Shown here piece after piece: positions 52,655 to 56,423 of a stretch of DNA of 64,000 nucleotides (positions are counted from its first letter, which is position 1; each line of letters begins with the position of its first letter). The notes beneath the pieces were generated by a model, which made no database searches, was not told the origin of the DNA, and saw nothing but the letters and a program-made list of their open reading frames with translations. The position numbers and the translations under genes were made by a program. The DNA is taken from positions 124,001 through 188,000 of the forward strand of contig NZ_CP017415.1 in NCBI RefSeq assembly GCF_001753245.1, read 5' to 3'. This stretch comes from Acidihalobacter yilgarnensis. Its GTDB lineage: Bacteria > Pseudomonadota > Gammaproteobacteria > DSM-5130 > Acidihalobacteraceae.

Positions 52655-53202
52655 ACTTGCTAGTCATCGACCACCCCGCGATCTGCGTCGATTTACGCTA
52701 CGCCAGCGCAGACAACATCACCGGTCAGCCGATCTACGCGCGCGCGATTGCGCTCCTGCACCCCGACGCACACGCCGCGCTTACGCGTGCCGCCGACCTT
52801 GCGGGTACGCTGGGTTATCGGCTGACGGTCTATGACGCCTACCGCCCGCCTGCGGCACAGTGGCGGTTGTGGGAGGCGTTGCCCGATCCCACCTTCGTGG
52901 CCGATCCGGTCGAGGGTTCAACCCACAGTCGCGGCATCGCCGTGGACCTCACCCTGGCGGATGAACACGGTCAGCCTCTGGTCATGGGCACCGGCTTCGA
53001 TGCCATGCTCGAACAGTCCTACCATGGTCGGCTGGATCTGCCACGCGAGGCCCAGCGCAACCGCACCCTGCTGCTCGGCCTCATGACCGCTGCCGGCTGG
53101 GTCCATCAGCCGCATGAATGGTGGCACTACAACCTGCCTGAGGAACTGAGTTATCCGATCATCGACGATGCCGACACCGTCGCGCGGATGATGGACGATT
53201 AA
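52651..53202 (+). CDS. ddpX: D-alanyl-D-alanine dipeptidase (VanX/DdpX family)
   Basis: 183 residues. The zinc site motif S-x-H-x6-D is present as STHSRGIAVDL, and the catalytic/zinc region PHEWWHY near the C-terminus is intact, as are YDAYRPP and its arginine. No signal peptide is seen, so it should act in the cytoplasm on imported dipeptide. It is coupled to ddpF by ATGA. In E. coli the ddpX-ddpABCDF operon salvages D-Ala from murein; here ddpX is last instead of first. Vancomycin-type resistance is unlikely because vanH and vanA ligase genes are absent. Confidence 0.92.
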   Translation: MNLLVIDHPAICVDLRYASADNITGQPIYARAIALLHPDAHAALTRAADLAGTLGYRLTVYDAYRPPAAQWRLWEALPDPTFVADPVEGSTHSRGIAVDLTLADEHGQPLVMGTGFDAMLEQSYHGRLDLPREAQRNRTLLLGLMTAAGWVHQPHEWWHYNLPEELSYPIIDDADTVARMMDD

Positions 53203-53728
53203 TCGGGTGGGATTTGAAGAGAGGTGGTGGGCTCCACCGCTCACCGTGTCGCGTGAACTGCGTCGTTTGCTTGAACGGTGTTCGAGTCTGAAATTTTAGG
53301 TGTCGCTAGGCAGGCTGCGAATGAGGTTGTCTGGTAAATTTATATGGAAGTTGTGAGCGGCGCGGTATGCGAGCAGCAGCACGCGGGCTCTATCAAGCTC
53401 GCTACTTAATGGACAGGGAGGGGGCTTACGGCGAGCCGCTAGGGGAGATTGTTTTTGGTCTGCGTTGTGGCGACGTGGAGGTCCAGACGTGAATCCACGT
53501 GTGGGCTGTGATCGATGCGTCCCACCAGTCTATAGGCATCACCGCGGATCTAGTCAGCGCTAATAAGTTTGAACTGCGTGAGGGTTTGGCTTACTTGGAG
53601 TCCTGTCAATAACTGTGCGCGCTATGTGGTTCATCAGCTGCGAATTTAGCCATCTAGTACTGTTTCAATGTCGCACAAAGCTCGTTCATACCCCGCTGTC
53701 ACTGTGCCCATTTCGCCACGCTTTCGCC
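53203..53728. other. Gene-free AT-richer spacer after ddpX
   Basis: I find no credible protein gene: open frames are short and lack family motifs or ribosome sites. A small hairpin, GGTGG (53223-53227) with CCACC (53234-53238), lies just after ddpX and may aid termination. Base composition is visibly poorer in G+C than the flanking genes, which hints at acquired or decayed DNA. Confidence 0.5.
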
Positions 53729-53777
53729 CACAAGTTGTGCACAGATCATCCACAAGCCATCCACAGACAGATCCACA
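53729..53777. repeat. Phased ATCCACA motifs and TTGTG/CACAA palindromes upstream of a promoter
   Basis: ATCCACA occurs three times, at 53748-53754, 53759-53765 and 53771-53777, spaced 11 and 12 bases, that is about one DNA turn. Just before are CACAA-G-TTGTG (53729-53739) and the palindrome TGTGCACA (53736-53743). TCATCCACA (53746-53754) differs from the DnaA box TTATCCACA by one base; the other two differ more. They end 13 bases before a strong -35, so they look like a phased protein-binding array controlling it. Confidence 0.5.
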
Positions 53778-53790
53778 TCATATTGTGTGA

Positions 53791-53819
53791 TTGACCGACT
53801 ACAATGCACATCCTATAGT
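53791..53819 (+). promoter_or_regulatory. Near-consensus sigma70 promoter
   Basis: TTGACC (53791-53796), a 17-base spacer and TATAGT (53814-53819). Transcription should start near 53826 and run through the structured leader into the tRNA at 54002. No comparable protein-coding start follows, so the product is expected to be RNA. Confidence 0.65.
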
Positions 53820-53825
53820 TGTCAC

Positions 53826-54001
53826 TCCAGTTTAAGGTTTGGCAACCGAGGAGTTTACGAGGAAGGGTAAATGATGAGAAGAGACATGCTTCCGTGTTCT
53901 GCAAACGCTCGGTAACCGCGTCACCGAGCACGGAGGCGAAAAAAAGGCTCGATAGCTGTATCAGAGCTACCGAGCCGTGGTGACAAGTTGCCGACTTTTA
54001 A
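53826..54001 (+). ncRNA. Structured RNA (tRNA leader or separate small RNA), family not recognised
   Basis: The predicted ends pair: 53832-53846 with 53987-54001 gives 14 of 15 positions paired (three G-U, one mismatch at 53838/53995). Inside are a helix 53889-53895/53930-53936 stacked on 53907-53913/53923-53929, and a 12-position hairpin 53946-53957/53965-53976 with one mismatch. Bases 53847-53888 are purine-rich and mostly unpaired. This is a three-way-junction fold about 175 nt long, ending where the tRNA starts. It does not match 6S, tmRNA, SRP or RNase P RNA. The last hairpin is preceded by seven A (53939-53945), so on the minus strand it could instead act as a terminator. Confidence 0.45.
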
Positions 54002-54095
54002 GCGGGTGTGGCGAAATGGTAAACGCAGTGGTCTAGGACACCACCGGATAAAAGCTGAGTAAGCTCCCTTGCGGGTTCGAATCCCGCCACCCGCA
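54002..54095 (+). tRNA. Class II (leucine-type) tRNA with AGG in the anticodon position, no encoded CCA
   Basis: A full cloverleaf of 94 nt: acceptor 54002-54008/54088-54094 (7 bp, all Watson-Crick), D stem 54011-54013/54024-54026, anticodon stem 54028-54032/54040-54044, T stem 54071-54075/54083-54087 with loop TTCGAAT. The seven-base loop CTAGGAC places A35-G36-G37 (window digits) as AGG, which reads proline CCU. Body features are leucine-like: acceptor and D arm closely resemble E. coli leuW, with A14 and discriminator A73 (54095). The variable arm is 26 nt, with 54053-54056/54062-54065 pairing, longer than leucine tRNAs usually have. CCA does not follow A73, unlike tRNA-Ile2 nearby. It may be mistranslating, repurposed or decayed. 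Confidence 0.6.
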
Positions 54096-54450
54096 TTCTT
54101 AGTATCGTACAAAATGTACACGTACAAAAGGCCTTTGCTTTTGTTTGTGTAAAATTTTTTCTTTCATTCTTTTTCTCTCTTTTCGGAGAAACCCAGTTTT
54201 TCTGGCGTGCATACTTTGTGGGCATTCCGCAGCGATCACCTGACTCGTTCTCGTGTTTAGCAATGACCAGTCTTTAATCGCGGTGATTGGGCTGTGCTGG
54301 CGAACCTACCCTTTAGGGAGGGAGTTAGGCAGCATTCACGAGGGTTCGTGATCGTTTTTGTCCATGCCCTGCATCTCTTCGATGTGTCTATATCTTGTCT
54401 ACTATCAAATGATCAAAATGACGCATTGTTTATAACTGGTTGTTTTTTTA
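54096..54450. other. AT-rich spacer between the two tRNA genes
   Basis: No protein gene is seen. CGTACAAAA occurs twice (54108-54116 and 54121-54129). A weak hairpin ACAAAAG/CTTTTGT (54124-54130/54138-54144) followed by a long pyrimidine-rich tract to about 54180 could terminate the tRNA transcript. The remainder shows no structure I can defend. Confidence 0.45.
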
Positions 54451-54527
<77 letters not shown>

Positions 54528-54540
54528 GTCACTGGGTGGC

Positions 54541-54570
54541 GCTCTGTCGGGATAGTTTGCCCGACAGAGC
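54541..54570 (-). terminator. Hairpin after rpoD
   Basis: GCTCTGTCGGG (54541-54551) and CCCGACAGAGC (54560-54570) are exact reverse complements around an eight-base loop, between the rpoD stop and tRNA-Ile2. There is no U tract on the minus strand, so it may be a processing or partial termination site. Confidence 0.6.
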
Positions 54571-54593
54571 GTGGCGACTTTTTATTGCTCTGC

Positions 54594-56423
<1,830 letters not shown>

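Follow-up and report, generated by a model that had tools for sequence, protein, structure and literature searches.

Natural tRNAs in which the body belongs to one amino acid and the anticodon to another have been described in few bacteria, as far as the literature at hand goes, and the family that we found described uses a proline body. These are the tRNA-ProX molecules of Streptomyces and Kitasatospora, which, in the accessible part of the source (PMC11415595), combine a proline body with alanine, asparagine or threonine anticodons, carry A33 and A15-A48, are served by a dedicated synthetase, ProRSx, and are predicted to mistranslate. With regard to the identity elements in E. coli, the excerpted sections of a 2023 review (PMC9976931) name A73, A14, A15-U48, G18G19, A20a and contacts between the D and T loops as leucine determinants, treat the anticodon and the variable arm as dispensable for LeuRS, and state that C2:G71 repels SerRS. 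For proline they name G72, G35, G36, A73, G15-C48 and methylated G37, with C1:G72 as a strong element, and one sentence adds A37. Altered anticodon loops are also found on phage-carried tRNAs, where the changes are proposed to avoid cutting by host nucleases (PMC10264068); a change of the decoded amino acid is absent from the abstract of that work. A narrow literature search returned no report of leucine-bodied tRNAs with proline anticodons or of tRNA cargo in IS1595 elements.

The window analysed in this study, a stretch of 64,000 nucleotides of Acidihalobacter yilgarnensis (G000:C1:124001-188000, in a genome of 3.57 Mb on a single contig), contains a tRNA gene that resembles tRNA-ProX in joining one body identity to the anticodon of another amino acid, in having A34 and in its predicted mistranslation, but differs from it in the leucine body, the proline anticodon AGG and the normal U33 and A15-U48. 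On balance, we regard it as a horizontally acquired, anticodon-shifted leucine tRNA that was probably the cargo of a mobile element. ARAGORN calls tRNA-Pro(agg) here as one of two tRNA genes in the window, and the Rfam tRNA model covers the same nucleotides at 59.5 bits (E = 2.4e-10, gathering score 29), so far over the cut-off that a chance cloverleaf is ruled out; we are almost certain that the gene is intact (Table 1). The cloverleaf, the CTAGGAC loop, the long variable arm, A73 and the missing CCA claimed by a sequence-only reading of this DNA are all borne out by ARAGORN, Rfam and our parse. Free folding recovers the parsed stems at a z of only -1.6, and 15 of 200 shuffles equal or exceed it in stability; folding energy by itself is therefore weak proof. 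According to the parse, the D stem has 3 bp, the D loop 5' of G18G19 reads AAAT and is one base shorter than in all five leucine tRNAs of the same genome, the variable arm has 26 nt against 13-15 nt in those tRNAs, and the gene is directly followed by TTC, hence no CCA is encoded.

Table 1. Features of the AGG tRNA locus (coordinates of the window)
Feature	Coordinates	Strand	Evidence
Class II (leucine-type) tRNA gene, anticodon AGG, 94 nt, without encoded CCA	54002..54095	+	ARAGORN, Rfam RF00005, parse
Acceptor stem, 5' strand GCGGGTG (G1, C2)	54002..54008	+	7/7 pairs with 54088-54094
D arm: GCG stem, 10-nt loop AAATGGTAAA (A14, A15, G18G19, A20a), CGC	54011..54026	+	parse
Anticodon arm GTGGT-CTAGGAC-ACCAC, 5/5 paired	54028..54044	+	parse
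Anticodon AGG for codon CCU; the next base is A37 and not G37	54035..54037	+	ARAGORN and parse
Variable arm, 26 nt, short stem AGCT/AGCT	54045..54070	+	folding and parse
T arm GCGGG-TTCGAAT-CCCGC, 5/5 paired	54071..54087	+	parse
Acceptor stem, 3' strand CACCCGC, and discriminator A73	54088..54095	+	parse
Possible tRNA promoter: near-copy of an nrdA-type promoter region located elsewhere in this genome	53706..53819	+	genome self-match
tRNA with CAT anticodon, beside rpoD	54451..54527	-	ARAGORN

The class II body, A73, A14, A15-U48, G18G19, A20a and C2:G71 are common to this tRNA and ordinary bacterial tRNA-Leu, so that every named leucine base is present; the proline anticodon in place of one for leucine codons, the shorter D loop, the 26-nt arm and the lack of CCA set it apart. 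Because LeuRS ignores the anticodon and the named leucine determinants are kept while those for proline are largely missing, the tRNA, if expressed, would likely be charged with leucine, to judge from its bases; the shortened D loop is the one doubt in this regard. The insertion of leucine at CCU foreseen by the sequence-only reading is thus what the anticodon-independent LeuRS of E. coli, as described in the excerpts of PMC9976931, would lead one to expect of an expressed gene. We consider it very improbable that ProRS recognises the gene product by G35, G36 and A73, so that it would serve as a proline tRNA despite its class II body. The NGG anticodon and those three bases fit, A37 is named in that single sentence, and C1:G72 together with G37 occurs in a viral relative (L173), which looks as though it had switched to proline identity, but the AGG tRNA itself has G1:C72, A15-U48, A37 and a 26-nt arm where a tRNA-Pro has C1:G72, G15-C48, methylated G37 (PMC9976931) and a short loop. 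The suggestion that A34 is deaminated to inosine, which would let the tRNA read three codons, found no support and decoding through TadA was rejected, since A34 in bacteria is described as almost confined to tRNA-Arg(ACG), the TadA substrate (PMC11415595, in the part available).

The genome has 45 tRNA genes with 44 distinct sequences (ARAGORN), and 43 of these end in CCA, the AGG tRNA being the sole exception. Five leucine genes (UAG, UAA, CAA, CAG, GAG) and four proline genes (UGG, CGG and GGG twice) make up a full set for both amino acids, so the AGG tRNA is not needed to complete the decoding of either. Of the proline codons CCU is used least, with 120 of 1106 in 50 non-overlapping window ORFs of at least 150 aa, mechanically chosen. 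Compared with 19 tRNAs of the same genome by global identity, the AGG tRNA is closest to Leu-GAG (0.639), Leu-UAA (0.632) and Leu-CAG (0.625), followed by Ser-UGA (0.622) and Leu-UAG (0.604), with Leu-CAA lower at 0.567 and three proline tRNAs at 0.534-0.551. The leucyl body proposed earlier therefore stands as a type, though it is no close copy of any leucine tRNA of this genome; an origin from the Leu(UAG) gene was rejected, since the two genes differ in stem and loop and share a core identity of 0.70. That the sequence is a sequencing or assembly error in an ordinary leucine tRNA, a mis-sequencing that had also been suggested, is hardly credible. The gene does occur in only one of the genomes searched, but this is a single-contig genome with the full normal leucine set elsewhere, the anticodon stem is paired 5/5, and the seven-base loop and perfect stem are kept where a single indel would break them; to turn the Leu(UAG) loop into this one would take two compensating indels.

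The AGG tRNA lies in a 1.25-kb spacer with a GC content of 49.7%, against 61.5% for the window. The spacer is bounded by an M15 D-Ala-D-Ala dipeptidase gene and by the CAT tRNA, which we take to be of the Ile2 type, and beyond the latter stand rpoD and dnaG (Pfam). The block of rpoD and CAT tRNA is shared by three relatives (G001, G002 and G004), where the 8 kb read at this place contain the CAT tRNA only and no AGG tRNA, so that the decay in relatives that had been raised beforehand turns out to be absence at this locus. A query with the AGG tRNA gave no match in G001-G004 at E<=0.001, and among 56 relatives including the source genome the five with a match at this threshold were its own copy and four T-arm matches of 21-30 bases. 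We consider it very likely that the gene was acquired. In G001 an integrase gene stands directly after the CAT tRNA (Pfam), which suggests a place able to take up foreign DNA. BLAST of the AGG tRNA and the spacer against phages and plasmids gave no useful match. A terminator-like hairpin is present on the minus strand just before the tRNA, at 53946-53976 (two terminator-like sites found, 1.5 expected), and a transcript running from rpoD through the CAT tRNA may cross the AGG tRNA in antisense.

Upstream of the tRNA, the near-copy listed in Table 1 matches G000:C1:2677752-2677876 in 110 of 125 aligned columns, 11 of the remainder being a single gap. The source region precedes an ORF that begins like the ribonucleotide reductase large subunit (nrdA; read from the translation), and 82 bases of it are kept in G001 and G002, at 79 and 82%. 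Its repeats are presumably DnaA- and NrdR-box-like. The copy ends in a -10-like TATAGT, 182 bases 5' of the tRNA and aimed at it, with TTGACC 17 bp upstream; promoter-like sites in 53200-54600 number 2 against 1.2 expected from shuffles. TGTCACT stands on both sides of the copy (53697-53703 and 53820-53826) in the manner of a target duplication, and the copy looks like an inserted promoter fragment. It may drive the AGG tRNA.

These features bear on whether the gene is a silent relic, that is, an acquired or old leucine tRNA gene that serves no function and is drifting in its anticodon loop, D loop and variable arm. Such drift would account for the lack of CCA where 43 other distinct tRNA sequences encode it, for the D loop one base short and the weakly paired variable arm, and for the AT-richer spacer, and the number of shuffles that fold at least equally well agrees with it; the stems, however, are all fully paired, the match to the Rfam tRNA model is strong and the promoter-region copy is aimed at the gene. 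We judge a relic unlikely and prefer the acquired, anticodon-shifted leucine tRNA.

The sequence-only reading had named a mistranslating tRNA as one possibility, and what it missed is that tRNAs of the same kind exist on viral contigs and inside IS1595-family transposons. A pattern search of the 2.9 million contigs of IMG/VR found 15 with a leucine-type tRNA bearing a proline anticodon: the leucine-body pattern with AGG gave three (L159, L164, L166), and with CGG, UGG or GGG it gave 12, which by reading are 11 UGG and one GGG (L179). The three AGG contigs were left from 11 first matches, eight having been set aside by eye with an apparent insert in the anticodon loop. Those eight (L157, L158, L160-L163, L165, L167) are viral leucine-like tRNA starts whose insert begins with TAGGG, and the inserts may be group I introns or another tRNA-like element. 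A cloverleaf filter passes 13 of the NGG sequences; the anticodon stem has 3 of its 5 pairs in L159 and 2 of 5 in L177, and L164 has G73 and a poorer acceptor stem. The exact anticodon arm of the AGG tRNA had no match in IMG/VR, from which records very near the source genome may have been left out. In bacteria, the AGG pattern was found in 1 of 369 genomes of the class and the NGG pattern in 1 of 398 genomes of the phylum, the source genome both times.

This shift is not particular to proline. With control anticodons in the same leucine frame, AG[ACU] gave two IMG/VR matches, one of them spurious, U[CU]G gave 19 raw matches on viral contigs, many near-identical, and UG[ACU] gave 10. As other shifted anticodons match about as often, shifting in leucine-type bodies is general, and a proline-specific phage class was dropped. 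Two viral class II tRNAs with a UUG anticodon (L186 10893-10977 and L191 7623-7707) have, by eye, U1:A72 and G73, as though a leucine body had become glutamine in identity.

When bodies were compared without anticodon loop and variable arm, the closest to the AGG tRNA were L179 (GGG) and, equally, L207 (UGA) at 0.823, followed by L166 (AGG, 0.79) and L172 (0.774), against 0.754 for the best of 21 pattern-matched ordinary leucine tRNAs and at most 0.738 for the leucine tRNAs of the same genome. The NGG bodies exceed the ordinary leucine bodies in identity (Mann-Whitney p=0.013), but the search pattern fits both sets as well as the window tRNA, which makes the test, and the body comparison as a whole, weak. 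The shortened D loop was found in none of the 15 NGG tRNAs and none of the five leucine tRNAs of the genome. A variable arm of at least 25 nt occurs in 6/13 NGG, 6/21 ordinary leucine and 0/13 other tRNAs; as a mark of the class it was rejected, since six ordinary leucine tRNAs share it and the leucine set comes partly from a long-arm scan. CCA is encoded in 4 of the 15 viral NGG tRNAs and in L203, so its absence is not universal.

That the closest bodies among those compared are viral-contig tRNAs, together with the nuclease evasion proposed in the abstract of PMC10264068, would suit a phage-type spare tRNA or a decoy for anticodon nucleases, whose altered loop escapes or distracts host tRNA-cutting defences. 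We find this improbable, as the shifted anticodons are diverse (UGG, AGG, GGG, UGU, UGA, UGC, UCU, AGA and CUA) and indicate no single nuclease, and a tRNA with a changed anticodon could not stand in for a cut tRNA-Leu at its own codons.

The link between such tRNAs and mobile elements, on which our preferred reading of an acquired leucine tRNA draws, comes from IS1595-family transposons. Genes for IS1595-family transposases (three of them checked by Pfam, PF12762 and PF12760) are present in 5 of the 15 NGG loci (L159, L174, L175, L176, L178; L174 and L175 partial only) and in 1 of 98 other loci taken from comparable scans (Fisher p=1.2e-4); these counts are lower bounds, each locus covering part of its contig, and the one control locus with such a gene, L203, itself has a shifted tRNA (UGU). 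Across 22 loci, inverted repeats and 8-bp duplications enclose the tRNA in L176 (170-3147), L178 (3893-6594) and L203 (140-4003), each with 8/8 duplicated bases, the duplication of L178, AATTTTTT, being of low complexity. L176 encloses, besides the transposase and a UGG tRNA, a gene whose product has AlbA and RecG-C-terminal domains. Small lysine-rich proteins that share GPxPxxLKxEGxWE (by eye) are encoded divergently from the tRNA in L180 (9514-9825) and L176 (2941-3078), and may be a recurring passenger gene.

A transposase query had matches in 18 of the 274 genomes searched for the class and in 46 of the 398 for the phylum, the source genome being one of these 46. Seven of the 60 loci returned have ARAGORN tRNAs, nine in total, so most IS1595 loci carry none. 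Six of these nine lack CCA (L287 UGG, L296 UCU, L297 UCU, L304 AGA and UGC, L353 CUA), the UGC tRNA of L304 ending in TCT, compared with 2 of 36 tRNAs, both poor calls, at 80 dnaG loci of other genomes. L304 (1599-1768; L330) has, next to a partial IS1595 transposase, a leucine-type AGA tRNA and after it a short UGC tRNA whose body resembles, by eye, that of a Cys tRNA. Longer stretches contain complete elements in L328 (4890-7684, UCU), L329 (4883-7347, leucine-type UCU) and L372 (2141-5898), the last an IS1595-family element on a bacterial chromosome with a leucine-type amber (CUA) tRNA and the target duplication AAACGTTA. With TAG read as leucine, the L372 transposase would be 333 aa long instead of 301, and an ORF of 358 aa would gain residues on its start side to reach 413; the amber tRNA is not convincing as a suppressor for the element's own genes.

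Altogether, six IS1595-family elements have inverted repeats and perfect 8-bp duplications, and five of them carry leucine-type shifted tRNAs (L176, L178, L203, L329, L372). The looser finder also yields pairs in shuffles (1, 2, 0, 0 and 3 of 40 for L176, L178, L203, L328 and L329), so a single match by it is weak. A strict rule, requiring an 8/8 duplication, an enclosed tRNA and a transposase that starts no more than 150 bp from one end, selected five of eight loci (L176, L178, L328, L329, L372; not L159, L317 or L203), with 0/60 shuffles passing for each of the eight; it is a confirmation and not a discovery, because its five were first chosen by the looser finder, and the L203 element is supported by the looser rule only. 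The tRNAs of L176, L178, L329 and L372 all have G1:C72 and A73, that of L328 has, by reading, a different class II body with G73, and class I bodies are found in the L287 tRNA and the second L304 tRNA, so the cargo is not all leucine-type. In body, the transposon tRNAs of L297, L304 and L353 reach 0.758-0.762 identity to the window tRNA, scarcely above the best ordinary leucine tRNA.

With the tRNAs of these transposons the AGG tRNA shares the leucine-type body with a non-leucine anticodon and the lack of encoded CCA, and with L304 also A34. It differs from them in its surroundings, since it does not lie between inverted repeats with a target duplication, nor with or near a transposase gene. 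A transposase profile found no remnant in the spacer (best E 1.1), and no terminal inverted repeats with at least 7/8 duplicated bases were found within 4.5 kb on each side; pairs with a 6/8 duplication number 4 against 0.95 in shuffles, all with their ends inside neighbouring coding genes. The terminal repeat motif CGGAAGTATGNNCTT was absent from G000-G004, and around the source genome's own IS1595 transposase (L324) the finder detected no element ends and ARAGORN no tRNA within the 10.4 kb read. As transposase, inverted repeats and duplication are lacking, the tie of the AGG tRNA to the class is one of sequence and anatomy, and by these it rather likely belongs with the mobile tRNAs. We would therefore say that it works like, and probably derives from, IS1595-borne tRNAs, and not that it is one.

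It is possible to put these observations into a single scheme. The AGG tRNA would have been acquired horizontally from leucine-type tRNAs with shifted anticodons, a dispersed pool that is found on viral contigs and also within IS1595-family transposons, the ends of which are shown in several cases. Any transcript would be completed with CCA by the cell, charged with leucine, and would compete at CCU with the product of the two tRNA-Pro(GGG) genes, giving low-level substitution of leucine for proline. That such mistranslation is meaningful in this host seems doubtful. Leucine-type bodies may be used because LeuRS ignores the anticodon, so that any codon (proline, serine, threonine, arginine or amber) can take leucine. 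We tentatively suggest, while leaning slightly against it, that IS1595-family transposons, carried in part by phages, disseminate natural suppressor tRNAs of both missense and nonsense type, and that the AGG tRNA is a stranded member of this pool, possibly now driven by a captured copy of the nrdA-type promoter. A set with leucine bodies does not depend on a dedicated synthetase and so could function in nearly any host, and carriage on transposons would let such tRNAs spread, making mistranslation or the suppression of mutations a mobile trait.
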